The position numbers were made by a program, and so were the translations under genes. Below are positions 1,422-18,795 of a DNA stretch of 64,000 nt, piece after piece. The stretch lies in contig NZ_CP022412.2 in NCBI RefSeq assembly GCF_002222615.2, positions 3,038,001 through 3,102,000 on the forward strand, given 5' to 3'. Position 1 is the first letter of the stretch; the number at the start of each line of letters is the position of its first letter. Origin of the DNA: Bacteroides caccae (GTDB lineage: Bacteria > Bacteroidota > Bacteroidia > Bacteroidales > Bacteroidaceae). The notes under the pieces are model-generated. The model was not told the DNA's origin. It was given only the letters and a program-made list of their open reading frames with translations, and searched no databases.

Positions 1422-2630
1422 ATGAAAACTAAAAGTACTATTTTCCATAGAAAACTAATGATGAAAACAGCCAGTTTAATAGTATTATCGATTATTATTT
1501 GTGCGTGTTCCACGAACAATAAGAGTTTGCTAAGTGGTATTGAAATAATACCGGTCGAAGTAGATGAAGTTTCGCAGGATGTTTCATTGTTTTTAGAGAA
1601 AATAGAGATTGTGCCTTTGGAAACGAATGATTCATCTTTATTTCATAGATGTAATAAAGTCCTTTATGATAAAAGGACGGATATGTTTGTGATTTATACA
1701 AGTGATCAAATCATTTATACATTTTCGGGGAATGGGCAATATGTTGCAAATTCAAAGAAGATGAAAGGGCAAGGACCGGAAGATTACGTCATGGTATTGG
1801 ATATTAATCTAAATCCTTACTTAAAAGGTATTGATCTGCTCAATCCTTATGGAACAATATATACTTATAGTCCAACATTTGAGCTATTGGCAAAGAGAAA
1901 GTTTAAACCGGAATTTCCTGTGGATTACTTGATGGCTTTAGATACAGATAATTATATCTTTACTAATCCTTTTATGTGGACGGATCAAGAAGTTTCATTT
2001 GTTAATTTGAGAACTCAAGAAGCTATTAGTGCAAATTATGAAGGAACTATTTCCGAAAACACTATGGCGCATAATTGTTTTTATCATATAGGAGAACAAT
2101 TTTATTTTGTTCCTTTCGGACTTAATTATTATTTCTATCAAATAAATGCGAAAGAAAAGAAACTTAATCCTATTATGTATCTTGATTTTGGGGATGCGGA
2201 AGTTGAAGATGATAACTTGCCTGGAAGGGCGAGCGGAAAGAGAACTGACTCTGATGAGGAAAGAAGAAAAATAACAGAAGACGCAACGGAAAGATATCAA
2301 TATCTGAGGAAATCAGGAAAGACTTTGCCATTGCTTAAATTTTTCAATGATGATTATGTATATATCTTTTTAGCTAAAGCAGTGAGAGGATATGGCAGTC
2401 ATTATATTTATAATAGGAAAAAGAATGAAGGTTTTCTGTTGAAAGAAGGAAAGCCCTTCTTTATGTATCCTTGTTTTGGTATAATAGATAATGTATTACT
2501 TGCTATTTGCCAACCGGATGAGTTGTCTCAATATATGGATCGTAATTTGATGTCACCACAAGAAATTCATAAAATGGAGACGCTGAAAGAAGACGATAAT
2601 CCTGTAATATTGAAATATTATTTGAAATGA
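1422..2630 (+). CDS. Six-bladed beta-propeller lipoprotein (paralogue 1)
   Basis: The 402-residue exported lipoprotein has hydrophobic segment ASLIVLSIIICACS with lipobox ICAC. A second in-frame start at 1458 (MMKTASL) gives a more typical signal peptide length. After about 35 residues comes the family hallmark FLEKIEIVPLETNDSSLF, followed by blade-like repeats such as GNGQYVANSKKMKGQGPEDYV. It ends in DDNPVILKYYLK, a tail shared with the other propellers in this island. These features place it in the Bacteroidetes 6-bladed beta-propeller family whose role is not established. It is the first gene of the A+T-rich island and has its own promoter-like box. Start choice between 1422 and 1458 is open. 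Confidence 0.8.
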   Translation: MKTKSTIFHRKLMMKTASLIVLSIIICACSTNNKSLLSGIEIIPVEVDEVSQDVSLFLEKIEIVPLETNDSSLFHRCNKVLYDKRTDMFVIYTSDQIIYTFSGNGQYVANSKKMKGQGPEDYVMVLDINLNPYLKGIDLLNPYGTIYTYSPTFELLAKRKFKPEFPVDYLMALDTDNYIFTNPFMWTDQEVSFVNLRTQEAISANYEGTISENTMAHNCFYHIGEQFYFVPFGLNYYFYQINAKEKKLNPIMYLDFGDAEVEDDNLPGRASGKRTDSDEERRKITEDATERYQYLRKSGKTLPLLKFFNDDYVYIFLAKAVRGYGSHYIYNRKKNEGFLLKEGKPFFMYPCFGIIDNVLLAICQPDELSQYMDRNLMSPQEIHKMETLKEDDNPVILKYYLK

Positions 2631-2640
2631 TGAAGTTTCC

Positions 2641-2925
2641 CAGTTGGGGAATAATGCCGATTGCTGGATAATGAAATATTAAGATAAGTAGTTTGCTTAG
2701 ATATGCATGGAAAAAGAGAAATGAATGGCTAAATAGTTTTTAATATTATCTGTTGGTTATTATAAATAATATTATCTTTGTGTTATTCAAACATATAAAT
2801 AAATCACGTGATGAAATTAATGGCAAGACGAAATAGCATGATTACATCTATTGGTAAATCGAGGTGGAATATGTCAGTGTGTATTACAGTTCTGAAAAAT
2901 AGTATCGTTTTTCTATTCTTTTTCT
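2641..2925 (+). repeat. Direct repeat copy A (promoter region plus 5' coding end)
   Basis: This stretch (starting CAGTTGGGGAATAATGCCGA) is repeated with few changes at 4035-4319, a constant 1394 bp away. The repeat covers the intergenic region, the promoter, the CACGTGATG start context and the first roughly 40 codons of two neighbouring beta-propeller genes, after which the proteins diverge. Confidence 0.8.
2753..2780 (+). promoter_or_regulatory. Candidate promoter of beta-propeller 2
   Basis: TATCTTTG at 2773-2780 fits TAnnTTTG. TTG at 2753-2755 lies 17 bp upstream, slightly short of the usual 19-20. The corresponding position of the downstream repeat copy carries TACCTTTG at 4167-4174, also a good match. 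Confidence 0.5.
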
Positions 2926-4025
2926 TCCTTTTAGTTTTAGTATCTTCATGCAGGCGGTCTTCTACTATAAACACTCCGAATGGTGAATATAAGATGATTG
3001 ATTGTCAGGAGATTAATGGCGGGAAATTTAAGTTGTCAAGCATAGCTTCATCTTTTTCCGTTATTCCACTTGAAACCAATGATAGTTGTCTGATAGGCGG
3101 GATAAGTAAGTTGGAATTTTATGATGGGAAGATATTTGTTTTGGATAAAATGCATAGTGCCCGTTTGTATGTATTCGATACCCAGGGAGAATATAAATTT
3201 GCTATTGGAAAAAGAGGGAGCGGGCCTAATGAATATATGCAAATTAATGATTTTTCCATAGACAAGGAAAAGAATTTAATTTATGTGCTTTGTGATAAGA
3301 AAAAACTCTTTACTTATTCTTTGTCTGGACAGCCTCTTGGGACAATAACTCTCGATTTCTTTGCTGATGCTATGGAATATCAGAAAAATCAGTTGCATTT
3401 TGTGTGTGATAGACTTGATAGGGGCAATCTTATTGTGACTGATATAAAAGGAAGGATACTATATGAAGATTTTCCGAATAAACGAATGGGAGATAATCTT
3501 TTGATGCTTATACATCCTTTTTCTAAACAAGATTCTATTTTGCTATATCGGATCTATTTGGATAATAAGATTTATGAGATGCAATCCGATCATAGAATAA
3601 AGGTTGCCTATGAAGTGAATTTTGGCGAAGAAAGTATTGATTTTGAGGATTTAGAAGATATTCCTCATAGGGAAGTAAAAAAGAAATTAGCAAATTCTCG
3701 TGGAAAAATTAAATATTTAACGGAAAATAGAAATTACATACAATTAATATTCTTCGACAAGCAAATGCCTTGTGTTGCTGTATATGATAAAAGACAGGGA
3801 GTAACCCGGTCATATACATTTGAAAATTGTGTTGATGATTTAACCGGACTACAATATCCTCTTTTTGAGTTCACGAAAGGGCAAGATGAATTTATTGCAA
3901 TTTTGAGTCCAATGGACATTGAAAATGCAGGAAGTGAACTTACGGAAAAAGGGAAGGCGGTTTTTAAAGACGTTAATTTTGTTGACGATGATAACCCTAT
4001 ATTATATATAGTAAAAACGGAATAA
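2811..4025 (+). CDS. Six-bladed beta-propeller lipoprotein (paralogue 2)
   Basis: About 404 residues from the ATG at 2811 (a GTG directly before it is less likely). The N-terminus is unusual: roughly 30 polar residues (MKLMARRNSM...SRWNMSVCITVLKNS) precede the hydrophobic core FLFFFFLLVLVSSC, whose lipobox is VSSC. A later start at 2871 (MSVCITVLKNS) would give an ordinary lipoprotein signal. The body carries the family motif FSVIPLETNDSCLIGG, a blade with GKRGSGPNEYMQI and the tail DDDNPILYIVKTE. The same extended N-terminus is found on the next gene, as part of a direct repeat. The family function is unknown; beta-propellers of this type are thought to sit in the periplasm or on the surface as binding scaffolds. 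Confidence 0.8.
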   Translation: MKLMARRNSMITSIGKSRWNMSVCITVLKNSIVFLFFFFLLVLVSSCRRSSTINTPNGEYKMIDCQEINGGKFKLSSIASSFSVIPLETNDSCLIGGISKLEFYDGKIFVLDKMHSARLYVFDTQGEYKFAIGKRGSGPNEYMQINDFSIDKEKNLIYVLCDKKKLFTYSLSGQPLGTITLDFFADAMEYQKNQLHFVCDRLDRGNLIVTDIKGRILYEDFPNKRMGDNLLMLIHPFSKQDSILLYRIYLDNKIYEMQSDHRIKVAYEVNFGEESIDFEDLEDIPHREVKKKLANSRGKIKYLTENRNYIQLIFFDKQMPCVAVYDKRQGVTRSYTFENCVDDLTGLQYPLFEFTKGQDEFIAILSPMDIENAGSELTEKGKAVFKDVNFVDDDNPILYIVKTE

Positions 4026-4034: not shown

Positions 4035-4319
4035 CAGCTGGGGAATAATGCCGATTGCTGGATAATGAAATATTAAGATAAGTAGTTTGCTTGGATGTAC
4101 ATGGAAAAAGAGGTATGAATGGCTAAAAATAGTTTTTAATATCGTCCGTTGGTTTTTGCAAATTATTACCTTTGCGCTATTCAAACAGATAAATAAGTCA
4201 CGTGATGAGATTAATGAGAAAACAAAATGGCATGATTGTACCTATGAAGGTATCTAGGTGGAGTATATCAGTGTGGATTACGGACCTAAAAAATAGTATT
4301 GGTTTCCTATTTCTCCTTT
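4035..4319 (+). repeat. Direct repeat copy B (promoter region plus 5' coding end)
   Basis: This is the second copy of the segment at 2641-2925. It carries the promoter-like TACCTTTG at 4167-4174 and the 5' end of the BF3164-type propeller gene. High similarity across noncoding DNA and the signal-peptide region, but not beyond, points to recombination that swapped the mature part of the protein behind a common 5' cassette. Confidence 0.8.
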
Positions 4320-5344
4320 TAATTTTTCTATCTTGTGGTACAAAGCATACGAAGTATGGAGACAATGTATTTCTCTATTCTGAATTTCCACAAGTGGAAG
4401 AGTTAAAAGGAGAAATCATAGAACTCGATACAGTCTTGTTTCGTTATCCCTTTCGGATACGAGTGGAAGGAGATAAAGTCATTGTAATGGATTTGCATGG
4501 TTTTGATAATTATGGACATCTTTTTCAATATCCTGATTTTCACTATCTATCTTCTTTCGGAATACATAGTGATTCACCTACGGGAATGCTATCAATGGAA
4601 AATCTTCGGTTTTATAACGAAGATGTATGGACATTAGACGCTAATAAAAGCGAATTAACTAAGTTCGATTTTTCATTATCCGGTGACTCACTACTTCGTG
4701 AGGAAACAGTAGCATTGGATGAAGATGTCCTTCGGGTACTTGATTTTACGGTGTTTAATGATACTACATTTATTATTCCTGACTATTCGGGGGATAGTCG
4801 TCTGTGCATGGTAAATCGTAAAGGAAAACTTTTCGAGAGGCTAGGGAATATACCAACTGTGAATGAGGATGCTTTACAGCATGCCCGCCCGGCGTTGGCT
4901 CAAGCGTGGCGTAGTTTTCTAGATTATAATCCTCATAATGGTATTCTTGCGACTGTTACTCAATTAGGGGAAGTAGTCGAGGTTTATAACTTAAAGGATA
5001 GTACACATGTGATACATATTGGTGAGCATGGTGAACCGGACTTTGAAATATCTGCCGGATATGGTGTACCAGCTGGAATTATGGGTTTTAGTGATGTACA
5101 GGTAACTGATAGTGCCATTTATGCAGTATTTCATGGAACGACTTTCAAGGAGATAGCGAAACAAAACGGTAGACTTCCTGACGGTGGAAAGTACATTTAT
5201 GTATTTAGTTTGAAAGGAGAACCACTATGCAAATATGTACTGGACCATTATATATATGGAATTTGGGTGGACGAAACTACTAAAACAATAATGGCGACGG
5301 ATGTAAATAATGATCAGCCCATAGTAAAATTTCGATATAGTTGA
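4205..5344 (+). CDS. BF3164/TolB-like beta-propeller lipoprotein (paralogue 3)
   Basis: 379 residues from the ATG at 4205. The extended N-terminus (MRLMRKQNGM...SRWSISVWITDLKNS) is homologous to that of the preceding gene, and is followed by the hydrophobic stretch IGFLFLLLIFLSCG with lipobox FLSC. The mature part differs from its neighbours. Segments such as FPFRIRVEGD-like 'YPFRIRVEGDKVIVMDLHG', 'YPDFHYLSSFG' and the tail 'DVNNDQPIVKFRYS' resemble the BF3164-type TolB-like propeller group rather than the IPLETND group. It is followed closely by the membrane-bound regulator gene, 28 bp apart, so the two may be co-transcribed. Confidence 0.75.
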   Translation: MRLMRKQNGMIVPMKVSRWSISVWITDLKNSIGFLFLLLIFLSCGTKHTKYGDNVFLYSEFPQVEELKGEIIELDTVLFRYPFRIRVEGDKVIVMDLHGFDNYGHLFQYPDFHYLSSFGIHSDSPTGMLSMENLRFYNEDVWTLDANKSELTKFDFSLSGDSLLREETVALDEDVLRVLDFTVFNDTTFIIPDYSGDSRLCMVNRKGKLFERLGNIPTVNEDALQHARPALAQAWRSFLDYNPHNGILATVTQLGEVVEVYNLKDSTHVIHIGEHGEPDFEISAGYGVPAGIMGFSDVQVTDSAIYAVFHGTTFKEIAKQNGRLPDGGKYIYVFSLKGEPLCKYVLDHYIYGIWVDETTKTIMATDVNNDQPIVKFRYS

Positions 5345-5372
5345 ATTGTTACTCTTTATCTTGATAAAAACG

Positions 5373-6407
5373 ATGAAAATAAAATATAAAATATTATTTA
5401 TATCTGTTACAGTTGCATTGTTTCTGCTTGGTAGTTACTATTATTATAAGTATAGGCAGAGTACTATTGAACAGATGGCTAAAGAGGCTTTCGTGGAAGC
5501 TGTTAATAGTGAAGCATATAGGCGGATACCTGATGTGAAATTGACTGTTGGCTTTAATGGCGGAGATATACTGAGAAAGGATGATGTTCCTGAATATATT
5601 TATTGGTATGATGAGTCAGGTGAGAGGAAGTATAAGATTGATCAGGAGAAACATTGGAAGAATGTGACAATGAATTCTGACGTGCGGATAATACATTCGT
5701 GTGCTTTTAAAGACTATTCACTCAGTCTTGATTCTTTAAATTGCAATTGGCAGAACTTTCTAAAAAAGAAAAATCTAGTATGCCGTACTGGTATATGTAT
5801 GTTTTCAACAGATTGGGATGAGAAAACAACTTCCTTGTTAACATCAGATAGTGAATGGTGGCAGAATCTACAACCCTTCTGGGTTTGCACGATCGGTTAT
5901 CGTTGTGAAATGGAATGTCTGCTTTATCTTCAATACTCTTTTTCGCAAGTGTTGGAGTTTGCAGGGATAGTTTACATCTTGCTTTATATTTTTTTTATTT
6001 TTACTATATACAAGATAACAGCTATTATCCGAAGGAAAATGAATCCAGAAAAAATAATAATCGAGAAAGAAGTATTAGTGAAAGAAGTGGAGACTACTAC
6101 TGCTAGATTATATCATTTAGGTGGTGATGTCTATTTTGATGCAGAGAAAAGAATAATGAGCGAGGGGGAAAAGAATGTATCCTTAACAAATCAGTCAGCC
6201 AAGTTATTAGAACTTTTTATGCAGGCAGACAATCATATTTTGTCTATTAACGCAATTGGTAAGGCATTATGGAAAGTTGATGGTAATTATGACAATAGGA
6301 TATATCAGGTTTTAAATCGATTACGAGGTTTCTTGAGACATTTTCCTTCTATATCCATCGAAATAGAGTCTGTGGGGAGTTACCAATTGAAAATCAGTGA
6401 GATATAA
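5373..6407 (+). CDS. Membrane-anchored winged-helix (OmpR/PhoB-type) transcription regulator
   Basis: 344 residues from the ATG at 5373; a TTG upstream at 5346 is less likely. Layout: a short cytoplasmic N-terminus, TM1 about residues 7-22, a periplasmic domain of about 170 residues, TM2 about 193-216 (AGIVYILLYIFFIFTIYKI), a linker, and a C-terminal winged helix about 246-344. The winged helix shows the trans_reg_C pattern: VSLTNQSAKLLELF, ISINAIGKALW-like 'SINAIGKALWKVDG', 'NRIYQVLNRLRGFLR' and 'IEIESVGSYQLKI'. This is the ToxR/CadC idea with the order reversed. The periplasmic domain has seven cysteines, which might sense redox state. Its 3' end is duplicated at 9170-9343. I infer that it controls the NVEALA promoter immediately downstream. 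Confidence 0.8.
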   Translation: MKIKYKILFISVTVALFLLGSYYYYKYRQSTIEQMAKEAFVEAVNSEAYRRIPDVKLTVGFNGGDILRKDDVPEYIYWYDESGERKYKIDQEKHWKNVTMNSDVRIIHSCAFKDYSLSLDSLNCNWQNFLKKKNLVCRTGICMFSTDWDEKTTSLLTSDSEWWQNLQPFWVCTIGYRCEMECLLYLQYSFSQVLEFAGIVYILLYIFFIFTIYKITAIIRRKMNPEKIIIEKEVLVKEVETTTARLYHLGGDVYFDAEKRIMSEGEKNVSLTNQSAKLLELFMQADNHILSINAIGKALWKVDGNYDNRIYQVLNRLRGFLRHFPSISIEIESVGSYQLKISEI

Positions 6408-6597
6408 ATCTTAAGTCTTCTTATTTCTACTTTTATTAGCAGATGTAAGAAGATGTAAGATGTTTCTTTTGGATTCAATGCCCCACTTACTTACCTTTAC
6501 CGTAGTTTATTTGAAAAATATAATATATTATGAAAAAAGGTATTTTTACGGCATTACTACTTACTATTATATTGTATAGTTTGTATTTGGTAAATGA
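6234..6597 (+). repeat. Tandem duplication, copy 1 (regulator 3' end to NVEALA leader)
   Basis: From CATATTTTGTCTATTAACGC through the regulator stop codon, the AGATGTAAGA repeats, the promoter and the first codons of an NVEALA gene, this sequence is repeated at 9170-9539, exactly 2936 bp downstream up to the peptide start codon. Confidence 0.9.
6441..6460 (+). promoter_or_regulatory. AGATGTAAGA direct repeats (copy upstream of decayed NVEALA gene)
   Basis: Two adjacent perfect copies of AGATGTAAGA with a 10-bp period. The following -7 box at this copy reads TACCTTTA (6492-6499) instead of TACCTTTG in the intact copy, so this promoter is probably damaged. Confidence 0.6.
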
Positions 6598-6720
6598 TGG
6601 AAGTCAAATAATGTCAGGAAAGGGATGCCATGGATGATGATCCTTTGGCTTTTTTTATTAGTTCTGAAAAATCGGGGTGGGTTAGTTTAGATTTGAGTAT
6701 TCCCGATAAATTATATAATT
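6530..6720 (+). pseudogene. Decayed NVEALA leader joined to a remnant of the transglutaminase gene
   Basis: The ATG at 6530 starts MKKGIFTALLLTIILYSLYL, nearly the same leader as the intact NVEALA gene at 9466. After about 22 codons the similarity jumps to the transglutaminase gene: TGTCAGGAAAGGGATGCCAT corresponds to the site near 11380 and continues for about 90 bp. It then jumps again at about 6695 to sequence found just after the transglutaminase stop (near 11738). The open frame stops at 6635-6637. I read this as an NVEALA-transglutaminase pair that lost two internal segments. No function is expected. Confidence 0.75.
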
Positions 6721-6914: not shown

Positions 6915-7304
6915 ATGAAAAAGAAACTAAATATAATAGCTTTTGCAATAGTTGTATGTGTAGTGAGTACATTAAATGTGAAAATAGCATTAAATACAAA
7001 TGTTTTATGCGATTTGGCTATGACCTCAATTAATGCGTTGGGTAGTGGAGAAGATTCTATGGATGTGGGAGAAAATGATTTTCCTACTGATCCTTTCCCT
7101 GATTCAAGCAGTACTGCTGCGGAAAAAGTGACTAGAAATTATTTTGAATATTCGTACATTAAATTGTATGAAAATTGTTACGCAAAATATAAGACTCGAA
7201 TAACGGAAATATCTTGTCCGGGATCTGGAGAAGTAAAATGTACAAACGGATTCTACTGTAGCAATCCTGAATATGTTGGTGAGGTTGATAAATATGGCGC
7301 TTGA
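6915..7304 (+). CDS. NVEALA-type small exported protein (129 aa)
   Basis: MKKKLNIIAFAIVVCVVSTL forms a hydrophobic N-terminal segment. It is followed by LCDLAMTSINALGSGED, a divergent form of the family motif N(V/I/L)EALA. The rest is an acidic spacer (DSMDVGENDFPTDPF) and a C-terminal region with four cysteines (ENCYAKY, EISCPG, VKCTNG, YCSNPE) that could form two disulfides. The 5' leader TATAAACGATGAAACGATAAT is shared with the other two NVEALA genes of this subtype. It is followed after 38 bp by a beta-propeller gene, the usual partner. The NVEALA family is known only as small secreted Bacteroidetes proteins of unknown function. Cleavage after ALG is inferred. Confidence 0.75.
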   Translation: MKKKLNIIAFAIVVCVVSTLNVKIALNTNVLCDLAMTSINALGSGEDSMDVGENDFPTDPFPDSSSTAAEKVTRNYFEYSYIKLYENCYAKYKTRITEISCPGSGEVKCTNGFYCSNPEYVGEVDKYGA

Positions 7305-7342
7305 ATGTATTGAGAATCTATAAGAACTTAAATATTAGTTTA

Positions 7343-8524
7343 ATGAATGTAAGATTAATAATTATTCAATTTGTACTAATTGCATGTACGAGTTGTTCTT
7401 CTGATAAAACACTTATAAAGGGCTGTGGGATTCCTATAGTATTGAATGAAATTAAAACAAGTTTGGTTGATACTGCCTTTTTTCAAGCCTCCTCAATAAT
7501 ACCATTGGAAAGTAATGATAACTTTTCCTTAATCCGGTCTATTGATAGAATATGTGTAATAGATGATACTTTTTATATGCTTGACCGCTCATTGGGTAAA
7601 GTTTTTATGTATAGTACTTCAGGAAAGTATTTGGGACAAATTAATGATATAGGTAGCGGTCCCGGAGAGTATATTCAGATTAGTGATATTACCGTGGATC
7701 AAAAAAGAAAAAATATAGTATTACTATGTGATCGGCCATATAAGGTTATGTATTATACTAATGCAGGAAAGTTGATGAAAGAAGTCTCATATTCTGACTA
7801 TTATAGTGAATTTATAGTAAACGGTGATAGTATTTATTGCTATAAGGTAGGGCTGAAAGATGTAGATTATATTTTAACTTATACCTATCCTATGGATTTT
7901 CTAAGAAAGGAGGCTTTGCATGAAAGACCTTATTTTGATTCAGGTTCTTCTGGAAATTTTACATCTTTCGATGTGGGAAATAGGTTAACAATAAGTGATG
8001 CTGTATATTTTACACGCCCTTTGGAAAGTTGTATATATTCTATAGATAGAAATGGTATATATGAGAAATATGCGATTGATTTTAAAGAGCACCATTTACC
8101 AAAATCATTACTAGAAAAGAATATGTCTGCTGAAGATTTTCTTAATATATGCGATGAGAATAAGTATGTATGTAGCATTACTAATGTAGTGGGGAATCGT
8201 GACTATTTGTTGTTCAAAACGAATATAGGACTCTTTATATATGATAAACAGTTAAAACGATTAGAAGGTTATTACTTTATTTTAAATTCGCCTTTAAGAG
8301 GTGGTTCTCCTAATTATTTACCCGTTAATAATGCAAGTCAAATAATACAAATTATGCAACCTATGCAGTTTAAACAGTATATGGACATACAAAAGGAAAG
8401 GAACAAAACGGATGACAAACTCAATCCGGTTTACGAGAATATATATCAAAATTTGCATGATGAAGATAATCCTATTCTGATAATTTACGAATTACCATAT
8501 AAAAATAATATTATTGAAGAATAA
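7343..8524 (+). CDS. Six-bladed beta-propeller lipoprotein (paralogue 4)
   Basis: 393 residues from the ATG at 7343 (MNVRLIIIQFVLIACTSCSS; lipobox ACTSC). An upstream TTG would add 14 residues before the signal and is not preferred. The protein carries the family motif SSIIPLESNDNFSLIRS, blade repeats (SGKYLGQINDIGSGPGEYIQI) and the tail DEDNPILIIYEL. It follows an NVEALA gene by 38 bp. It overlaps the next gene, a thioredoxin-like protein, by 11 bp, which suggests translational coupling. The same propeller plus small thioredoxin-like pairing occurs at 17121-18795. Confidence 0.8.
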   Translation: MNVRLIIIQFVLIACTSCSSDKTLIKGCGIPIVLNEIKTSLVDTAFFQASSIIPLESNDNFSLIRSIDRICVIDDTFYMLDRSLGKVFMYSTSGKYLGQINDIGSGPGEYIQISDITVDQKRKNIVLLCDRPYKVMYYTNAGKLMKEVSYSDYYSEFIVNGDSIYCYKVGLKDVDYILTYTYPMDFLRKEALHERPYFDSGSSGNFTSFDVGNRLTISDAVYFTRPLESCIYSIDRNGIYEKYAIDFKEHHLPKSLLEKNMSAEDFLNICDENKYVCSITNVVGNRDYLLFKTNIGLFIYDKQLKRLEGYYFILNSPLRGGSPNYLPVNNASQIIQIMQPMQFKQYMDIQKERNKTDDKLNPVYENIYQNLHDEDNPILIIYELPYKNNIIEE

Positions 8525-9169: not shown

Positions 9170-9343
9170 CATATTTTGTCTATTAACGCAATTGGTAAGG
9201 CATTATGGAAAGTTGATGGTAATTATGACAATAGGATATATCAGGTTTTAAATCGATTGCGAGGTTTCTTGAGACATTTTCTTTCTCTATTCATCGAAAT
9301 AGAGTCTGTGGGGAGTTACCAATTGAAAATCAGTGAGATATAA
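9170..9343 (+). pseudogene. 3' fragment of the membrane-anchored regulator gene
   Basis: 57 codons plus stop nearly identical to the end of the regulator gene (6234-6407), starting inside the winged helix at HILSINAIGKALWKVDG. It has no start codon or upstream domain. Two substitutions give HFLSLFIEIE in place of HFPSISIEIE. It is the left boundary of the second copy of the tandem duplication. Before it, 9125-9169 shows nothing recognisable. Confidence 0.85.
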
Positions 9344-9376: not shown

Positions 9377-9396
9377 AGATGTAAGAAGATGTAAGA
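9377..9396 (+). promoter_or_regulatory. AGATGTAAGA tandem direct repeats, candidate regulator binding site
   Basis: Two perfect adjacent 10-bp repeats, with a further partial TGTA at 9397-9400, end 6 bp upstream of the -33 element. OmpR/PhoB-type winged-helix proteins typically bind head-to-tail direct repeats of 10-11 bp just upstream of the promoter, so the regulator at 5373-6407 is the natural candidate. Binding is inferred. Confidence 0.6.
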
Positions 9397-9402: not shown

Positions 9403-9435
9403 TTTTGGATTCAATACCCCACTTGATTACCTTTG
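9403..9435 (+). promoter_or_regulatory. Promoter of the NVEALA-transglutaminase unit
   Basis: TTTTG at 9403-9407, a 20-bp spacer, then TACCTTTG at 9428-9435. This matches the Bacteroides promoter consensus well. The start codon of the NVEALA gene is 30 bp downstream. Confidence 0.75.
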
Positions 9436-11740: not shown

Positions 11741-11774
11741 TTAATTTTATAATTGTTAAACTGGTTGGGAAGGA

Positions 11775-11819
11775 AGAATGGACGATTGCTGTTCTTTGGC
11801 AAGGCGCATCGTCCATTCT
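11775..11819 (+). repeat. Perfect 12-bp inverted repeat between transglutaminase and NVEALA genes
   Basis: AGAATGGACGAT at 11775-11786 and ATCGTCCATTCT at 11808-11819 flank a 21-base loop. No T-run follows, and an NVEALA gene starts 132 bp downstream, so this may be an attenuator, an mRNA processing or stability hairpin, or a protein site rather than a full terminator. Confidence 0.6.
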
Positions 11820-11931
11820 GAATACAGCCTAAATAAGGAAGAAGGTATCCAATGCAAACATAAGAATAAAAAATGAAAGTGGCAAGTGATTGCCTTATGC
11901 CGTTGAAAGGATAGAGACGGAATAAACTGAA

Positions 11932-12092
11932 TTATAATATAAACGATAATATGAAAAAGAAATTATTTGGAATAATGTTGGTCCTTGCAGTTATACTGTT
12001 TGCTGGTTATACTGTATATAATTCTCATGGAGATATAAAATTGTCTGATGTAACGTTGGCTAATTTGGAAGCTTTAGCAGATGAAAATGATG
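11932..12092 (+). repeat. NVEALA leader cassette, copy 1
   Basis: The 5' untranslated stretch (GAATTATAATATAAACGATA) and the first 47 codons of the NVEALA gene are nearly identical to 13264-13433. Sequence downstream of the cleavage motif is unrelated. Confidence 0.8.
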
Positions 12093-12247
12093 ATAACTCT
12101 GAAGCAGGAGGAGCAAGTCATAGTTGTTATAAAAAATGGAGAAAAGCACCAGAGGATGACGGTTTTGCTCTATGGGGGTGGATTTGTCAGGAATGTGAAC
12201 TTTATTGGTTATTGGAAGCTAAGTATACATCGACGTGTAATAAATAG
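11951..12247 (+). CDS. NVEALA-type small exported protein (98 aa)
   Basis: The leader MKKKLFGIMLVLAVILFAGY is hydrophobic, followed by DVTLANLEALADENDD, a canonical form of the family motif with a putative cut after ALA (residue 43). The mature part is about 55 residues, starts acidic, and has four cysteines (SHSCYKKW, WICQECELY, TSTCNK), suggesting two disulfides. The leader is nearly identical to that of the damaged gene at 13292 while the mature parts are unrelated. A beta-propeller gene follows after only 4 bp, so the two are almost certainly co-translated. Role unknown. Confidence 0.8.
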   Translation: MKKKLFGIMLVLAVILFAGYTVYNSHGDIKLSDVTLANLEALADENDDNSEAGGASHSCYKKWRKAPEDDGFALWGWICQECELYWLLEAKYTSTCNK

Positions 12248-12251: not shown

Positions 12252-13223
12252 ATGAAGTATAGTATTGTATTCTTCTTTCTATTATCTATTTTGGGGGTAA
12301 GTTGTGTTTCTCACAAGGAGCAAATAGTTGATCTTCCAAATCCCACGTCGTTATTGGCAGATAGTATAACAACTCCTCCGGTATTGTTGTCTGTGACACG
12401 TTTATTTATAGTTCATGATATGTTGGTTGCTTACGAACAACGGAAAGATACTTTGTTCTCTTTCTGGAAATTACCAGAATGCCAATATTTGTTTAATGCG
12501 GGGGTAAAAGGACAGGGACCTAATGACTTTTTGATATTAGATAGGAATTTTGTTGAATCTAAAGAGGGTTTTAAAGTTTTTGAATTACCCTCAAATAGAG
12601 TGAAAGAATTGAAAATAGATTCATCGGGTACTTTTAAATTAATCTCAGAACAGAGGTTGAAAGTAAACCAAATGCCACTAAATCGTTTCCTTTTTTTAGC
12701 TGATAGTTCTTATTGCTTCTTGTCTCAAGATGATAAATATGAATATACGTTACTGGATAAGAAACAGGATACTCATCAATTCAGCGATTACCCATTTGAT
12801 TTATTGAAAAAGGATAAAGGCGATGATAATAATTTTGTATATAATAAATTGACTGTTTCTAAACCTGATGGAGAGATGTTTGCCTCTTTTTATGTATATA
12901 TTAAGATGATGAGAATCTATAACCGACATGGTGAGATGTTGAATGAAATAGTGTTGGAGCATGCTAACTCTTCGTTAGATAACGAAGAGAAAATTACTTA
13001 TTATCCTTACCCCCCATGTGCTGATAATAAATATATATATGTATTGACTAAACAAGAAGAAGAGCCAATTCTGGAAGTATGGACATGGAATGGTGAACTA
13101 GTTGAGCGGTATTCTTTAGATAAGAAGATTAGCAATTTTGTCGTTTCTAATAAGTATCATACCCTTTATGCTGTTAATAAGGATATTGAAGATAAGATAT
13201 ACGTTTATAAACTTCCTCTTTAA
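12252..13223 (+). CDS. Beta-propeller lipoprotein (paralogue 5, divergent)
   Basis: 323 residues from the ATG at 12252 (MKYSIVFFFLLSILGVSCVS; lipobox GVSC). The open frame runs further upstream through the NVEALA gene in another phase, but the lipoprotein signal fixes the start. Blade-like segments include QYLFNAGVKGQGPNDFLIL and MRIYNRHGEMLNEIV. The usual IPLETND motif and the DDNP tail are absent; the protein ends EDKIYVYKLPL, so it is a divergent or shorter member. It is the partner of the NVEALA gene directly before it and is followed by a clear hairpin terminator. Confidence 0.75.
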   Translation: MKYSIVFFFLLSILGVSCVSHKEQIVDLPNPTSLLADSITTPPVLLSVTRLFIVHDMLVAYEQRKDTLFSFWKLPECQYLFNAGVKGQGPNDFLILDRNFVESKEGFKVFELPSNRVKELKIDSSGTFKLISEQRLKVNQMPLNRFLFLADSSYCFLSQDDKYEYTLLDKKQDTHQFSDYPFDLLKKDKGDDNNFVYNKLTVSKPDGEMFASFYVYIKMMRIYNRHGEMLNEIVLEHANSSLDNEEKITYYPYPPCADNKYIYVLTKQEEEPILEVWTWNGELVERYSLDKKISNFVVSNKYHTLYAVNKDIEDKIYVYKLPL

Positions 13224-13259: not shown

Positions 13260-13263
13260 TTGA

Positions 13264-13433
13264 ATTATAATATAAACGATGAAACGATAATATGAAAAAG
13301 AAATTATTTGGAATAATGTTGGTCTTTGCAGTTGTACTGTTCGCTGGTTATACTGCATATAATTCTCATGGAGATATAAAATTGTCTGATGTAACGTTGG
13401 CTAATTTGGAAGCATTGGCTGGAGAAAATGACG
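13264..13433 (+). repeat. NVEALA leader cassette, copy 2
   Basis: Second copy of the leader cassette at 11932-12092, with an extra short insertion (GATGAAAC) in the untranslated part that is also present before the gene at 6915. Confidence 0.8.
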
Positions 13434-13598
13434 GAGGTGGAGAGAGTGGGGGATAAGCATATCTGTTATGATAGATATTCTATTTCAGGTTGTTCTATGT
13501 TTAAACAGTTTTTTTCCGCAGGTGAGGTTATTGGTCAATTCGTTGAAAGAGTTGGAGAGATAGGATCAAAAATGAAATATCATGATTGCTATAGATAA
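13292..13598 (+). pseudogene. NVEALA-type peptide gene with a frameshift in a G5 tract
   Basis: The ATG at 13292 encodes a 54-residue product: leader MKKKLFGIMLVFAVVLFAGY, the motif LANLEALAGEND, then GGGESGG and stop at 13454-13456. Removing one base from the run of five Gs at 13448-13452 restores an open frame to 13598. That frame encodes GDKHICYDRYSISGCSMF through KMKYHDCYR, a three-cysteine tail of the right length and style for this family (about 101 residues in total, against 98 for its neighbour). So the gene is broken, phase-variable, or misread at the homopolymer. The remaining part to 13712 shows no gene and no clear promoter. Confidence 0.7.
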
Positions 13599-13712: not shown

Positions 13713-14579
13713 ATGAAGTATTGCTTTTTAGGATTTTTAGCATTATTGTTTATTTCCTGTAAGGGAAATAAGCAGCAACTAGCTGCGTTATTAAAAGAAT
13801 GGGAACAAAAAGAAATTATATTTCCTTCACATACAGTTTTTACTATTCAAGGTAAAGACACTGTTGATTTTTGTATAAAAGACCAATACAAAGTTTTGGT
13901 ATATACCGATTCTACTGGATGTACTGGATGTAGATTGAGGCTCGCTGATTGGAAGAAGTTTATGCAACAGGTTGATTCAACTAGTGCTGATTCCGTTCAG
14001 TTCCTTTTTTTCTTCTTTCCGAAGAAAGGTATGGAGCTCCACCATACTTTAAAAATGGCTTTATTTAATAATCCGGTATGCATAGATAAGCAAGATAGTC
14101 TTAATATACTGAACCACTTTCTACAGAGAATGGATTTTCAGACTTTTCTTTTAAATGAGAATAATAAGGTTGTAGCTGTTGGTAATCCTATTTATAATAA
14201 TAAGGTAAGAGATTTATATCTGAAAATTCTTTCGAAGAATAAATCTTTAGAAAATAATAATGAAGGACGACAAACTTCTCTGAAAATAGATCAAATGGTT
14301 TTGGATATGCAGTCTTTCTTGTGGGAAGAAAAGCAAACAAAGAGTCTGAGCATCCAAAATACGGGGAGTATTCCTTTGGTGATTAATGATGTGACTACAT
14401 CCTGTGGTTGTACTGTGGTAGATTACCCAAAACAACCAATATTACCAGGTAAGAGCGATACATTGCATATCAGTTATCAAGCTGAGCATCCTGGGCATTT
14501 TAACAAAACGATTAGTATATATTGTAATACGACTTCATCTCCAATACTTATTAAAATAAAGGGAAATGCAGAAAAATAA
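13713..14579 (+). CDS. Lipoprotein with thioredoxin-like CxxC domain and DUF1573 domain
   Basis: 288 residues with lipoprotein signal MKYCFLGFLALLFISCKG (lipobox FISC). Residues about 60-170 form a thioredoxin-like domain with YTDSTGCTGCRLRL (CxxC active site) and FLLNENNKVVAVGNP as the later strand. Residues about 190-288 match DUF1573, an immunoglobulin-like domain, with INDVTTSCGCTVVDYP and ILPGKSDTLHISY. It probably handles thiols or disulfides in the periplasm. It stands 14 bp before the O-antigen-ligase-like gene and probably forms an operon with it and the signal peptidase. Proteins with this pairing are common in Bacteroides; substrates are unknown. Confidence 0.75.
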   Translation: MKYCFLGFLALLFISCKGNKQQLAALLKEWEQKEIIFPSHTVFTIQGKDTVDFCIKDQYKVLVYTDSTGCTGCRLRLADWKKFMQQVDSTSADSVQFLFFFFPKKGMELHHTLKMALFNNPVCIDKQDSLNILNHFLQRMDFQTFLLNENNKVVAVGNPIYNNKVRDLYLKILSKNKSLENNNEGRQTSLKIDQMVLDMQSFLWEEKQTKSLSIQNTGSIPLVINDVTTSCGCTVVDYPKQPILPGKSDTLHISYQAEHPGHFNKTISIYCNTTSSPILIKIKGNAEK

Positions 14580-14593: not shown

Positions 14594-16240
14594 ATGAAGA
14601 TGACGAGAATACAATTTTTGCGGATAAAAACACAGGCTTCTATCGCTTTGATTTCAATAGGAGTAATCGGATTACTAAGTACCGTTTGTGCCTATTCTTC
14701 CTATATTCCTGCCGGGGATACTGCTTATCAATGGCTGTGGTGTGGGTGGGTTTCTATAATATTTACTGTATGTGTATTATTAGCGGTAGGGTTATCAGCA
14801 AAAGGAGTACATTTTTTCTATCATTCAGTGATTTGGGGGCTTATTTTAATGGGTGGTATTGAAGCAGTCTGGGGATTGCGTCAGATTTACGGTTTCGCTA
14901 CTTCTAATCATTCATTATATGCTGTGACAGGCTCTTTTTATAATCCTGGACCATATTCCGGCTATTTGGCATTGGTATTTCCTGTATGTTTGTACGAATG
15001 GTTACGATTAAATGCTATAAAGCAACGTACTTGGGAAGAATCGGTAGGGTATTATTTATCTTTTGGGGTGCTGTTATTACTCGTTTGTGTACTTCCGGCA
15101 GGAATGAGCCGTTCGGCATGGCTGGCGTCCATCTTTTCGGGAGTATTTGTATGTAGTGTACACTATCCATGGAGAAATTGGTTGAAAAAAGCTTGGGAGG
15201 AGTATCATGGAAAAGCGGTAGTTGCTTTACTTTTGCTTTCCGTTATTTTGATAACAGGAGGTATTGGAATCTATCATTTGAAGGCTGATTCAGCTAAAGG
15301 ACGACTGTTTATGTGGAAAATAAGTAGTTTGGCTGTGGTTAAGAAGCCCATTTCTGCGTATGGTATTGGGAACTTTGTTTATGCTTATGGACAAGAGCAG
15401 GAGAAATATTTTGCAAAAGGTAGTTATGATGAAGATGAGGAACGTGTAGCTGGTAGCCCGGAGTATGCTTTCAATGAATATCTACGAATAGCAGTAGAGT
15501 GTGGTATTCCGGTTTTGGTACTTGTGTTAACGATAATAGGTGGTTGCTTGTATCGGGGAATTAAAAAGAAACGTATCGGTATCTGCGGAGGATTAATTTC
15601 ATTACTTTTTTTCTCTTTTTCTTCTTATCCAATGACGTATCCTTGTTTTATCATTGCATTTATTCTTCTTTTAATTGCATGCTTCTTGGACTATTCACAT
15701 AAGTTGATGCTTCTATTTACGTTTGTGATCGGCAGTGTAGGTGTATGGTTGGTACGGAATAATGCGTATGACGCTTGTCGGGAGTGGTCACAATGTAAAA
15801 TGTTGTATAGTATTCAGGCATATGGTAAAGCGAAAGAAGAATATGGAAGACTATATCCGCTTCTGAATGGCCGTCCCCGTTTTCTTTTTGAGTATGGACG
15901 TTGTCTGCATAACTTGAAAGAATACAATGCTTCTAATCGGATATTACAAGAAGCGGAACGAATCAGTTGCGATCCGATGATACTTAATGTCATTGGCAAA
16001 AACTATAAGGCGTTAAAGAGATATGAAGAAGCTGAACATTGGTTTCTGCGCTCTACTCATCGTTTACCGGGACGTATTTATCCATATTATCTGTTAGCAA
16101 AACTCTATGCTGAACCGGATTTTCGAAAACCTGATAAATTGGAACAAATGGTCGAAATTGTGTTGACGAAAGAACCGAAAATACAATCGTCTGCTATTCG
16201 TGAAATGAGAGATGAAGTAAAAAAATTGATAAGTCGATGA
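14594..16240 (+). CDS. O-antigen ligase/Wzy-like membrane protein with TPR tail
   Basis: 548 residues. About ten transmembrane segments fill residues 15-410. The Wzy_C/WaaL-type signature is visible as KPISAYGIGNFVYAYG, then AFNEYLRIAVECG after a periplasmic loop. The last 130 residues (AYGKAKEEYGRLYPLL, RYEEAEHWFLRSTHR) look like tetratricopeptide repeats. WaaL-fold enzymes transfer lipid-linked glycans to lipid A, to other glycans, or in PglL-type enzymes to proteins. No other polysaccharide gene is nearby, so a role tied to the neighbouring exported proteins is possible but unproven. It overlaps the signal peptidase gene by 4 bp (ATGA). Confidence 0.75.
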   Translation: MKMTRIQFLRIKTQASIALISIGVIGLLSTVCAYSSYIPAGDTAYQWLWCGWVSIIFTVCVLLAVGLSAKGVHFFYHSVIWGLILMGGIEAVWGLRQIYGFATSNHSLYAVTGSFYNPGPYSGYLALVFPVCLYEWLRLNAIKQRTWEESVGYYLSFGVLLLLVCVLPAGMSRSAWLASIFSGVFVCSVHYPWRNWLKKAWEEYHGKAVVALLLLSVILITGGIGIYHLKADSAKGRLFMWKISSLAVVKKPISAYGIGNFVYAYGQEQEKYFAKGSYDEDEERVAGSPEYAFNEYLRIAVECGIPVLVLVLTIIGGCLYRGIKKKRIGICGGLISLLFFSFSSYPMTYPCFIIAFILLLIACFLDYSHKLMLLFTFVIGSVGVWLVRNNAYDACREWSQCKMLYSIQAYGKAKEEYGRLYPLLNGRPRFLFEYGRCLHNLKEYNASNRILQEAERISCDPMILNVIGKNYKALKRYEEAEHWFLRSTHRLPGRIYPYYLLAKLYAEPDFRKPDKLEQMVEIVLTKEPKIQSSAIREMRDEVKKLISR

Positions 16241-17121
16241 AAAAGCTGTTATTACTATTGATGCGTTTGATGAAAGGGTGCATTTGGGGAATTACAATCT
16301 TGTTCCTTGGTTGGATACTACTACAAACAGTTTTGTTTGCCTCCTTCAAAGTACCTACGGATTCAATGGTGCCTGCTTTGTTACCTGGTGATAACATTAT
16401 TGTGAACAAACTTCCGATGGGTGCCCGACTTTTTAATTTGTCTGCAGCTTTCCGTCAGGAACGTTTTGTTGTCTATCGGTTGCCTGCTTTGGGGGGCATA
16501 AAACGAAATGATGTTCTTGTTTTCAATTTTCCTTATCCTCAACATCGGGATAGTATTGGATTTGATATTTTAAAATATTATGTGAAACGTTGTGTTGCAT
16601 TACCCGGTGACTCTATTTCTATTCATAACTATCATTATTGTGTGGCAGGCTATGAGAAAGATTTGGGTAATATAAAATCTCAGGACAGTATGAAAGAACG
16701 TCTACAACAATTACCGGAGAATGCTCGAAAACGATATTCTTTCCAAACCTATCCGTGGAACGATTCTATTCACTGGAACGTTTGTAATTTTGGTCCACTT
16801 TATATACCTCGAATGAATGATGTCATTGTGATGAACCGGAAGAATTACCTTCTTTATCGTCATCTTATCGAATGGGAACAGCAGAAGAAACTTCAATGGA
16901 AAGGAGAAAAAGCTTATTTGGATCATCATCGTATTACTAGCTATCGTTTTCGTACAAACTATTATTTTATGGCAGGAGATCGGGTGTTTAACTCTCAAGA
17001 TTCTCGTTATTGGGGATTGTTGCCGGAAGAATATATTGTTGGAAGGGCATCTTTTATTTGGAAATCTACTGATAATGAAGGGAAAATACGTTGGAAACGA
17101 ATATTCAAATCAATAACATAA
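16237..17121 (+). CDS. Accessory signal peptidase I
   Basis: 294 residues. A single N-terminal membrane segment lies at about 14-34, followed by the type I signal peptidase box FKVPTDSMVPALLPGD with catalytic Ser43. The general base is Lys117 in YYVKRCVALPGDSI, and the C-terminal box is YYFMAGDRVFNSQDSRYWG. All essential residues are present. It cleaves signal peptides on the outer face of the inner membrane. It overlaps the O-antigen-ligase-like gene before it (ATGA) and the beta-propeller gene after it (TAATG), so all are translated together. Housekeeping signal peptidases are not normally embedded in such a cluster. I infer that it processes exported products of this island. Confidence 0.85.
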   Translation: MKKLLLLLMRLMKGCIWGITILFLGWILLQTVLFASFKVPTDSMVPALLPGDNIIVNKLPMGARLFNLSAAFRQERFVVYRLPALGGIKRNDVLVFNFPYPQHRDSIGFDILKYYVKRCVALPGDSISIHNYHYCVAGYEKDLGNIKSQDSMKERLQQLPENARKRYSFQTYPWNDSIHWNVCNFGPLYIPRMNDVIVMNRKNYLLYRHLIEWEQQKKLQWKGEKAYLDHHRITSYRFRTNYYFMAGDRVFNSQDSRYWGLLPEEYIVGRASFIWKSTDNEGKIRWKRIFKSIT

Positions 17122-18386
17122 TGACGAGTATGAATAATATTAGGATATTTATAATGAAGATATGCTATATATGTTGTGCTATAGCAATGAGCTATATAGC
17201 TATTTCTTGTCTGTCTGAGAACAAAATAATAGATAGAAGCAGCCCTGTATTAATTGTGAATTTGGATAGTACCAAAGTGTCAGAATTTAGGTATTCGGAT
17301 ATTTTCAAATCAGTGACTGCAATTGAGCTGGATGAAAAAGACGCACTGCTGGGAGGAATAGATAAAATGCAGATTTACAAGAGTCAATTGTTTGTTTTGG
17401 ATAGCCGTTCTACAAAAGGAGTTTATATATTTGATAGAAAAGGCACTTTTATGAGAAAAATTGGCAATATAGGATTGGCACCTGATGAATATGTATCTTG
17501 TGATGATTTTACGATTAATATAGATGATAATGAACTGTATATCTTTGATTCTTTACAGAATAAGATATATAGGTATGATATTTCTTCAGGTAAGTTTAAA
17601 GGAGGAATTCTTATGGATAAGAATATTCATTTTAATTACATTGCTTATAATAGTGGATGCTTATATGGAGCACAGACTTTTTTTCAACCTTCAAAAGAAG
17701 ATAGATACTATTTACTACAGCAAGTAGATGTCAAGTCAGGGGAAAGAATTGCACAATGGATGGATGCATCAGAGTATAATAAAGGGTGGAATGATGAACT
17801 TATTCATGGCAATGTTTTTTATAATATTGGCAAGAATGAAGATTTGTTTATCATGGGTTTAATGGATACTATTATGTCTATTAAAGAACAGAGAATTTCT
17901 CCATATATGGCTATTCAAAGTGAGGGGATAGTTTTAAAAAAAGATATATTAGAAGATGAAAAGCTTCTGACTCTTGATCCTCGGGTAAGAAGTCGAAATA
18001 TTCTTTCTCTAATAAATAGGCTTAACAAACAAGGTAAAATACAGCATATTTCCCATATTTATAAATATAAAGACCAGCTATTTTTTGAATGTATGAGAAA
18101 GTCTAATCAACAGGTTCAGCATGATATTAAAAGTGGGAGAACACTTGTTTATGAGAAAACACTAAATGATATATTGTTTACTATTAAGCCTGACTATTCT
18201 CATATTCCGATATTTCTTTGTAGTGATTCGTTGGGTGTATATTTTTATGTTACTCCTGAATGTTTTTCTGAGTTGCAGTATTTTGAGAAAGAGAATTATA
18301 TATCTGATAAACTAAAGAATAAAGAAAGTATAAGAAAATTAAGAGATGAATCTAATCCATTGATACTCTATTATGAATTTAAATAA
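17121..18386 (+). CDS. Six-bladed beta-propeller lipoprotein (paralogue 6)
   Basis: 421 residues from the ATG at 17121, which overlaps the stop of the signal peptidase gene (TAATG). A start at 17154 (MKICYICCAIAMSYIAISCL) gives a more compact lipoprotein signal with lipobox AISC. The protein carries the divergent family motif SVTAIELDEKDALLGG, a blade RKIGNIGLAPDEYVS and the tail DESNPLILYYEF. It overlaps the following small gene by 14 bp, repeating the arrangement at 8514-8524. It closes the run of propellers in the island. Confidence 0.8.
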   Translation: MTSMNNIRIFIMKICYICCAIAMSYIAISCLSENKIIDRSSPVLIVNLDSTKVSEFRYSDIFKSVTAIELDEKDALLGGIDKMQIYKSQLFVLDSRSTKGVYIFDRKGTFMRKIGNIGLAPDEYVSCDDFTINIDDNELYIFDSLQNKIYRYDISSGKFKGGILMDKNIHFNYIAYNSGCLYGAQTFFQPSKEDRYYLLQQVDVKSGERIAQWMDASEYNKGWNDELIHGNVFYNIGKNEDLFIMGLMDTIMSIKEQRISPYMAIQSEGIVLKKDILEDEKLLTLDPRVRSRNILSLINRLNKQGKIQHISHIYKYKDQLFFECMRKSNQQVQHDIKSGRTLVYEKTLNDILFTIKPDYSHIPIFLCSDSLGVYFYVTPECFSELQYFEKENYISDKLKNKESIRKLRDESNPLILYYEFK

Positions 18387-18795
18387 TTTCATAACTGTTT
18401 GTATTTCAGTTATGTCTGTTTCTGCTATTTCTTTTTATATAAGTGAAAAGACGGAAATAAATAGAAGGGATATGAATAATATACAAAAGAGTTTGGGGAA
18501 AAATAAAATACTAATATTGCCGGCTTATGAAAATAATCGTTATAATATGATGCTTTTAAAAAATAAATTGAGTAATTTTAGATTCACAAATATATCCGAG
18601 GAATTTCTGGAGTTTCCAAGTAGCCGAACAACAGGATTGAGTCAACGATTTTTTGCATATGTAAATAACCAGGGGCGAATGACCTCATTTTATTTTCCTA
18701 GTAAAAATCAACAGGATATAACACGATTATATTTAAATCATTTGAAGGAAAAAATACAAAAGAATAACAAGAATAAGATTGTCGGGCATAAATAA
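18373..18795 (+). CDS. Small membrane-anchored protein, shortened thioredoxin-like relative without CxxC
   Basis: 140 residues with an N-terminal membrane segment (ITVCISVMSVSAISFYI). The rest aligns by eye with the second half of the frameshifted protein at 8514-9124: KILILPAYENNRYN matches KNVIFLTDYEDQCF, and FFAYVNNQGRMTSFYFPS matches LFVIDKDFIINKIYIPH, with the same LYLNHLKEKI-like ending helix. The segment with the CxxC active site is missing, so it is probably not a redox enzyme in its own right. It overlaps the propeller gene before it. Whether it is a natural short form or a deletion product cannot be told from this window. Confidence 0.6.
   Translation: MNLNNFITVCISVMSVSAISFYISEKTEINRRDMNNIQKSLGKNKILILPAYENNRYNMMLLKNKLSNFRFTNISEEFLEFPSSRTTGLSQRFFAYVNNQGRMTSFYFPSKNQQDITRLYLNHLKEKIQKNNKNKIVGHK

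Follow-up and report, generated by a model that had tools for sequence, protein, structure and literature searches.

The question raised by this locus is what a one-strand group of genes for small, putatively exported peptides, beta-propeller lipoproteins and processing enzymes does in Bacteroides caccae. The group occupies positions 1422-18795 of the window, by which we mean the whole 64,000-nucleotide stretch that was analysed (NZ_CP022412.2, positions 3,038,001 to 3,102,000), in a 4.57 Mb genome of the genus Bacteroides. An initial annotation, made from the letters and open reading frames, had described it as a peptide-export and maturation island built around NVEALA proteins (PF14055), and matches to PF14055 at E ≤ 0.001 are confined to this island within its own genome. 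Our comparisons confirm the island and place it in a gene system that recurs among Bacteroidales and is apparently undescribed so far: in the open-access PubMed Central (PMC) literature, which omits most subscription papers, we found neither a mention of NVEALA nor a description of this system. As to function we lean, if only slightly, towards a full mechanism in which polymorphic Sec-exported peptides would be matched by cognate, periplasm-facing propellers acting as immunity proteins or receptors.

The initial annotation expected the partner families to occur together with NVEALA genes in other genomes, and each partner tested was enriched, both in a comparison with control stretches and at loci found through the accessory signal peptidase. 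A PF14055 search of 41 genomes (own genome and 40 relatives) gave 13 positive at E ≤ 0.001. The NVEALA set consisted of 31 stretches around matches in the 12 other genomes (some of them contiguous, three without a match to the NVEALA profile that we built), and the controls were 56 stretches of 20 kb each from ten NVEALA-carrying genomes (own genome and nine of the 12; 12 of the 56 from own genome). Using iterated profile searches that started from window proteins, propellers were found at 31 of 31 NVEALA loci and 2 of 56 controls. The corresponding counts were 19 vs 1 for the CxxC-DUF1573 protein (TRX-DUF1573; its profile also picks up DUF1573-only proteins, which are included), 13 vs 1 for the transglutaminase-core lipoprotein (TG), 8 vs 1 for the accessory type I signal peptidase (S26), 10 vs 2 for the regulator (REG) and 5 vs 0 for a Wzy_C membrane protein with weak TPR matches (Wzy_C-TPR). 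Clustering of all reading frames without any query returned, among its top groups, NVEALA (25 vs 0), propellers (20 vs 0 and 15 vs 1), TRX-DUF1573 (17 vs 0), TG (12 vs 0), REG (9 vs 0), S26 (8 vs 1) and Wzy_C-TPR (5 vs 0).

A scan with an S26 alignment yielded 572 loci, the best 80 of which comprised 46 of the accessory clade and 34 LepB-like ones. After removal of two already seen (L137, L142), 44 accessory-S26 loci remained, with two genomes counted twice (L122/L145 and L139/L141). Of these 44 listed loci, 29 had NVEALA nearby, 36 a propeller, 34 Wzy_C-TPR, 27 TRX and 27 TG; none of the five was found near any of the 34 LepB-like loci, which are a weak control, being mostly from other orders. 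REG was counted in 14 of the 44, L192 being a response regulator and L146 a fragment. The association p-values are too small, because some loci are contiguous, source genomes are few and some genomes are repeated.

The usual operon runs REG, type-1 peptide, propeller, at least one pair of type-2 peptide and propeller, TRX-DUF1573, TG, then S26 and Wzy_C-TPR, at times with a GtaA-like lipoprotein between TG and S26. This lipoprotein (DUF4964/DUF5127/glutaminase hairpin) was seen in L043, L045 and L057, Pfam having been run on the L045 copy only. Variant NVEALA-propeller-S26 loci with serpin genes were observed in L050 and L060 (the L060 serpin is a close copy), and in L050 a C10 peptidase gene that weakly matches a Spi inhibitor is present as well. 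The NVEALA-positive records of the S26 set include ones assigned to Bacteroides, Phocaeicola, Parabacteroides, Odoribacter, Paludibacter and Rikenella. In an order-wide sample PF14055 was matched at E ≤ 0.001 in 29 of 392 genomes (20 of 204 genera; 23 over the cut-off), and the system is therefore widespread but patchy. NVEALA genes and propellers also occur in two records labelled Clostridiaceae and Clostridium (L158, L159; metagenome bins), possibly mislabelled. Four genes with nearby numbers in a B. thetaiotaomicron table of PMC10434189, annotated there as O-antigen ligase family (BT0662), 6-bladed beta-propeller (BT0664), signal peptidase I (BT0667) and RND adaptor (BT0669), may, on gene numbers and annotations alone, belong to a relative of the island.

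Four properties had escaped the initial annotation: the existence of two peptide kinds, the peptide-propeller pairing, a breakpoint at the NVEALA codons, and the link of REG to type-1 peptides and 10-bp repeats. The residue frequencies at the leader motif are N 0.96, V or I 0.88, E 0.94, A 0.96, L 0.92 and A 0.90 over 112 sequences, and N[VI]EALA ends a median of 23 residues past the hydrophobic helix (interquartile range 21-24). Type 1 has a conserved core (C...G[SDTNC][VIL].C, usually followed by KVxYV..GYSL), with mean pairwise identities of 0.40 in the leader and 0.44 in the core (23 sequences), whereas type 2 combines a conserved leader (0.41) with a hypervariable core (0.22; 78 sequences). 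An even number of cysteines was counted in 66 of 78 type-2 cores and 19 of 23 type-1 cores. With a type-1 pattern that was set after looking and widened after a second data set had been seen, type 1 accounted for all 14 NVEALA genes that stand directly 3' of a REG on the same strand, for five of the six next to a divergent REG and for 5 of the remaining 92; among these last five, the window gene lies behind a REG remnant and that of L057 starts near a contig end. The strict first pattern flagged no peptide away from REG in the second data set.

Upstream of the same-strand REG-linked type-1 genes, an exact 7-mer recurring at a 10-bp period was found within 200 bp in 10 of 14 cases, as against 3 of 88 among the other NVEALA genes, from which four with a short upstream stretch were excluded. 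By chance a mean of 0.32 and a maximum of 2 of 14 would be expected (200 simulations), and for the other periods between 7 and 15 bp the fraction in the 14 genes was never above 0.07. Both window copies carry AGATGTAAGA twice, neither belonging to the 14 counted genes. About 50 bp on from the second copy lies a TAnnTTTG box, which was also found in 10 of the 14 REG-linked genes. The repeat sequence varies from locus to locus, as expected since the regulators would each have their own specificity. REG itself is of the OmpR/PhoB type: Trans_reg_C scores 27.9 bits against a cut-off of 26.2 (one relative lies below, at 23.6), and the top Foldseek matches of the full REG model are all winged helices of the OmpR/PhoB/ToxR/CadC class (best E 1.4e-3). 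The full REG model reached a predicted local distance difference test score (pLDDT) of 81.8 and a predicted template modelling score (pTM) of 0.55; the periplasmic domain modelled by itself (window 5442-5996) reached 81.6 and 0.80, with no fold match in the PDB (best E 0.27). From the genetic linkage we infer that the repeats are binding sites of REG and the type-1 peptide the ligand of REG.

As to the type-2 peptides, the next gene was a propeller after 75 of 88, and the gap from peptide to propeller was 47 bp in the median (both peptide kinds pooled). Where the two cores of a cross-locus pair were related (31 pairs, z ≥ 5), propeller identity was 0.373, compared with 0.237 in 400 sampled pairs with unrelated cores, and the 16 most similar cross-locus propeller pairs all had a core z of at least 3.9. 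Pairs from the same locus had similar leaders (0.58), related cores in 1 of 22 cases and propellers averaging 0.27. Ranking against the propellers fetched from the same genome was used to lessen the effect of genome relatedness, and the partner propeller came out best in 51 of 63 comparisons (20.3 expected). The leader-core boundary is sharp: in 9 of 9 chosen paralogue pairs (8 of 19 available pairs, and the window pair), DNA identity was 83-100% in the 30-nt bin that ends at the NVEALA codons and 33-60% in the bins beyond, and in L128 a 895-bp block of 95% identity ends at these codons. Core and propeller thus appear to form a matched unit, while the leader in front of them stays constant. 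Were the island a mere hot spot for lipoprotein genes without any functional system, one could understand that it lies at the same chromosomal site as L045, a locus of another Bacteroides species (left flank 82.5% identity, RND adaptor on the right), and that part of the loci stand beside related RND genes. However, the gene set is repeated at several places within a genome, is shared by several Bacteroidales families and is near-absent from the controls, and this explanation leaves both the linkage of REG, repeat and type-1 peptide and the co-inheritance of core and propeller unexplained. In view of the control comparison, the S26-found loci, the REG-repeat linkage and the partner ranking, we rejected it as very improbable.

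The genes and elements of the island, from reading frames and Pfam and NCBIfam scans, are as follows; NVEALA membership requires more than 27 bits, the curated cut-off.

1422..2630, +: orphan beta-propeller lipoprotein (DUF5128), 78% identical to an L045 propeller paired with a type-2 peptide.
2808..4025, +: beta-propeller lipoprotein (DUF5128), with no peptide directly upstream.
4202..5344, +: orphan beta-propeller lipoprotein (TolB_like), 75-78% identical to an L045 propeller paired with a type-1 peptide.
5346..6407 (likely start 5373), +: REG, one-component regulator with transmembrane helix, periplasmic domain, transmembrane helix and C-terminal OmpR/PhoB-type winged helix.
6441..6460, +: tandem 10-bp direct repeat AGATGTAAGA x2, copy 1, presumed REG site; no exact TAnnTTTG box follows.
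6530..6637, +: damaged type-1 NVEALA leader running into a fragment resembling the 3' end of the transglutaminase gene (by eye).
6915..7304, +: NVEALA-like peptide gene, 129 aa, 16.4 bits (under the cut-off).
7301..8524, +: beta-propeller lipoprotein (DUF5128), overlapping the preceding peptide gene by 4 bp.
8514..9124, +: thioredoxin-like membrane protein in two frames (8514-8855, 8831-9124), no Pfam match.
9176..9343, +: second REG copy, a remnant with only the C-terminal winged-helix part, 55 codons (by eye).
9377..9396, +: tandem 10-bp direct repeat AGATGTAAGA x2, copy 2.
9404..9435, +: predicted Bacteroides-type promoter TTTG ... TACCTTTG, upstream of the type-1 peptide, called from the Bacteroides promoter consensus.
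9466..9729, +: type-1 NVEALA peptide, core with CIDVGSLDCPLTHEKVKYIVRGYSL, 32.8 bits.
9797..11740, +: transglutaminase-core lipoprotein (Transglut_core), sub-threshold F5/8-type match near the C-terminus.
11755..11945, +: intergenic element with inverted repeat; second copy at 6723-6901, 81%.
11951..12247, +: type-2 NVEALA peptide, 44.8 bits.
12252..13223, +: beta-propeller lipoprotein (TolB_like), presumed cognate of the 11951 peptide directly before it.
13292..13456, +: damaged type-2 NVEALA gene, frame lost just past the leader, 38.0 bits.
13713..14579, +: lipoprotein with CxxC (CTGC) and DUF1573 in a single protein.
14594..16240, +: Wzy_C membrane protein, weak TPR matches, Phe at the catalytic-His position.
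16237..17121, +: accessory type I signal peptidase (S26), Ser43/Lys117 dyad.
17091..18386, +: beta-propeller lipoprotein (DUF5128), with no peptide directly upstream.
18373..18795, +: small protein, no Pfam match, no CxxC, no relative among the fetched loci.

Most of the gene content given in the initial annotation is borne out by this list. Every gene was found and lies on the + strand, including the six propellers (four DUF5128, two TolB_like), the transglutaminase-like lipoprotein, the accessory signal peptidase I and the membrane-anchored regulator, and the overlaps of stops and starts at 7301/7304 and 16237/16240 were confirmed. Its three open and two damaged NVEALA genes are those at 6915, 9466 and 11951 and at 13292-13456 and 6530-6637, respectively; 9466, 11951 and 13292 score over the PF14055 cut-off and 6915 under it. 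CxxC thioredoxin-like proteins and DUF1573 are likewise present, except that CxxC and DUF1573 are one protein (13713), the 8514/8831 gene is split and 18373 lacks the CxxC. A second membrane-anchored thioredoxin-like family, in two frames in the window, occupies one frame in L039 (11991) and L144 (12575).

By eye, the island is partly an imperfect tandem duplication at the DNA level. The stretch after REG (6400 on) and that after the REG remnant (9340 on) have in common an intergenic region and the start of a type-1 peptide; in copy 1 the type-1 leader continues into the transglutaminase-like fragment, and in copy 2 REG is cut to about its last 55 codons. A sequence search found two copies of the 191-bp element ahead of type-2 peptides, both in the island, and no third copy in the genome. 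The inverted repeat of the copy at 11755-11945 is GAATGGACGAT ... ATCGTCCATTC, and the element is possibly an attenuator or a remnant of the duplication.

Propellers without an NVEALA gene directly upstream are frequent (81 of 166, some of which may have an undetected peptide or sit at a contig edge), and 24 of these 81 share 35% identity or more with a paired propeller of another locus. In the island, the propellers at 1422 and 4202 share 75-78% identity with two paired propellers of L045, compared with 43% for TRX, 49% for S26 and 55% for Wzy_C-TPR between the same two loci, and the ratio of nonsynonymous to synonymous substitution rates (dN/dS) against L045 is 0.12 for each of them. The type-2 core of L045 left no significant tblastn trace in the first 22 kb of the window. 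Such a pattern is what peptide replacement with retention of the old partner would leave, by analogy with orphan immunity genes, which have reportedly been seen in Bacteroidales.

Surface exposure was scored as CX(D/E)2 after a recognised lipobox (22 of 168 propellers had none), following the Bacteroides surface lipoprotein export motif CS(D/E)2 given in an excerpt of PMC6222051. Where a lipobox was found, this motif was carried by 0 of 146 propellers, 0 of 37 TG and 1 of 39 TRX proteins. The propellers are therefore unlikely to be surface receptors, a role that we discarded, and would face the periplasm. The system outlined in the initial annotation consequently holds in part: a sensor, cysteine-containing peptides, cleavage, disulfide chemistry and propeller partners fit the conserved gene order, and receptors at the surface do not. 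Periplasmic propellers would also suit a system of ligands and receptors without toxicity (kin recognition or quorum-like), in which type-1 and type-2 peptides are signals and propellers are binding proteins feeding REG or other sensors. That REG is genetically tied to the conserved type-1 peptide in 14 of 14 cases, and that in several modules both REG and the repeat sequence are particular to the module, would fit such signalling as well. However, type 2 is hypervariable and shows no tie to REG, and the many unpaired propellers suit immunity proteins better than receptors, so that we judge pure signalling to be rather unlikely, though worth keeping in mind.

Among the processing genes, the accessory S26 is a type I signal peptidase by its features: S43 and K117 are invariant in 9 of 9 sequences, box E is conserved, and TIGR02227 scores 99.6 bits against a cut-off of 47. 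Within the genus it was present in 9 of 12 NVEALA-positive genomes and 0 of 8 NVEALA-free ones (20 of 25 genomes, five incomplete ones being excluded). A cut after ALA is suggested because of the A-x-A form of the motif and the co-occurrence with S26. The CxxC of the CxxC-DUF1573 protein is invariant (12 of 12). The catalytic His of Wzy_C enzymes is H338 in WaaL and H349 in PglL, according to an excerpt of PMC3643930. At this column, aligned by motif and not by structure, the Wzy_C-TPR protein has Phe in 34 of 35 sequences and Leu in one, so the WaaL/PglL-like enzyme of the initial annotation did not stand, and a proper O-antigen ligase or glycosylation enzyme was rejected. One of the two other Wzy_C proteins of the same genome has HN at this position and the other does not (by eye). 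A resistance-nodulation-division (RND) efflux adaptor and pump lie directly downstream of the island (18855-23073), and a related adaptor stands beside 16 of the 44 listed accessory-S26 loci. The pump was dismissed as a fixed part of the system, the adaptor being present without NVEALA in G017 and G021 (2 of 8 NVEALA-free genomes).

The recurrence of transglutaminase-core lipoproteins and Wzy_C-TPR, and the GtaA-like lipoprotein of some loci, would also agree with an envelope or metabolic operon, i.e. a periplasmic machine (for instance for a modified cell-surface peptide or glycopeptide) that anchors or displays NVEALA peptides as structural subunits. Such subunits should not vary core by core together with a matched partner and a sharp breakpoint in the leader, however, and the Wzy_C protein lacks the ligase histidine, which makes this explanation improbable.

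Polymorphic peptides with cognate propellers would account for these findings as follows. REG would bind the tandem 10-bp repeats and switch on the operon via the promoter of the type-1 peptide, whose conserved mature part would most likely be REG's own ligand, a feedback signal. The type-2 leader would keep the peptide in the inner membrane; it ends in N[VI]EALA, a putative A-x-A site about 23 residues past the membrane helix, where the accessory signal peptidase would cleave. The CxxC-DUF1573 protein would handle the disulfides of the released core, which would then be bound specifically by the propeller lipoprotein encoded just downstream, an immunity-like (or receptor) partner. Through recombination within the conserved leader, core and propeller would be exchanged as one cassette, with old propellers staying behind without peptides, and the role of the peptides would be antagonistic rather than signalling. 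The architecture, with a constant leader, a variable core, a matched partner, orphans, a breakpoint at the junction and a self-linked regulator, is well supported.

Several observations weigh against this mechanism. The next gene was a propeller after just 12 of 24 type-1 peptides, and the partner propeller was not the best in 12 of 63 comparisons, which moreover overlap. Pairs with related cores were also closer in the leader (0.496 vs 0.410), and a Mantel test over all type-2 pairs gave a rho of 0.05 for core and propeller (p = 0.012) and 0.08 for leader and propeller, the core-propeller signal being strong only for pairs with detectably related cores; part of the pairing signal is therefore shared descent. 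On the side of the regulator, only one of six divergent REGs had the 10-bp repeat, one of the ten repeats among the 14 genes (L145) is an A-rich run, and in the second data set the strict first type-1 pattern flagged three of five same-strand and two of six divergent cases. NVEALA was undetected near 15 of the 44 accessory-S26 loci, the accessory S26 was missing from 3 of 12 NVEALA-positive genomes, and no outward exporter could be clearly assigned to the system, the RND adaptor being found at 16 of 44 loci and in NVEALA-free genomes as well. In addition, a propeller of about 380 aa is large for an immunity protein, and the retention of orphans is also compatible with receptors.

If true, the proposed mechanism would give a function to several unannotated Bacteroidales families together (NVEALA, the DUF5128 and TolB_like propellers and the accessory S26 clade) and would give abundant gut bacteria a further means of recognition or competition, one based on peptides. 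It predicts that matched peptides and propellers bind each other, that cleavage falls at a defined site, and that the regulator has a genetically linked ligand and recognisable sites in the DNA. Only tentatively would we go further and propose a new class of polymorphic peptide weapon or self-recognition in gut Bacteroidales, in which REG, switched by its own conserved companion peptide, would turn on an operon of Sec-exported disulfide peptides, each peptide would have a dedicated periplasmic propeller as immunity protein, and variety would arise by recombination exactly at the signal-peptidase leader junction.

Bacteroidetocins and other Bacteroidales ribosomally synthesised and post-translationally modified peptides (RiPPs) likewise come as leader and core peptides in operons in the same bacterial order, and an excerpt of PMC10352776 describes mostly double-glycine leaders and a peptidase-containing ATP-binding cassette (ABC) transporter for them; unlike those, the island leader has an N-terminal membrane helix and N[VI]EALA. 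Pfam and NCBIfam scans found no ABC transporter, and thus no C39 one, among the island genes, and with a leader ending in N[VI]EALA a double-glycine bacteriocin or RiPP exported by such a transporter was rejected. Like LepB, the island S26 keeps the Ser/Lys dyad and box E, but it belongs to a separate clade of about 290 aa that is tied to this system and was not found in the eight NVEALA-free genomes of the genus. With WaaL and PglL the Wzy_C-TPR protein shares a Wzy_C domain over the cut-off and differs from them in the Phe at the catalytic His. ToxR and CadC are built of an N-terminal cytoplasmic winged helix followed by one transmembrane helix. Like them, REG combines a periplasmic domain and a winged helix of the OmpR/PhoB type in one membrane protein, and both are among its best matches, but its winged helix is C-terminal, behind two membrane helices, and the layout is thus not ToxR/CadC-like. 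Finally, polymorphic toxin-immunity systems include contact-dependent inhibition (CDI), Rhs and type VI secretion system (T6SS) effectors. The island differs from these in its peptide core of about 40 residues in place of a toxin domain, its membrane-anchor leader, its beta-propeller lipoprotein partner and its dedicated signal peptidase, and no injection machinery was seen among the island genes. It shares with them, however, all four of a constant N-terminus, a variable C-terminus, a matched downstream partner and retained orphan partners.

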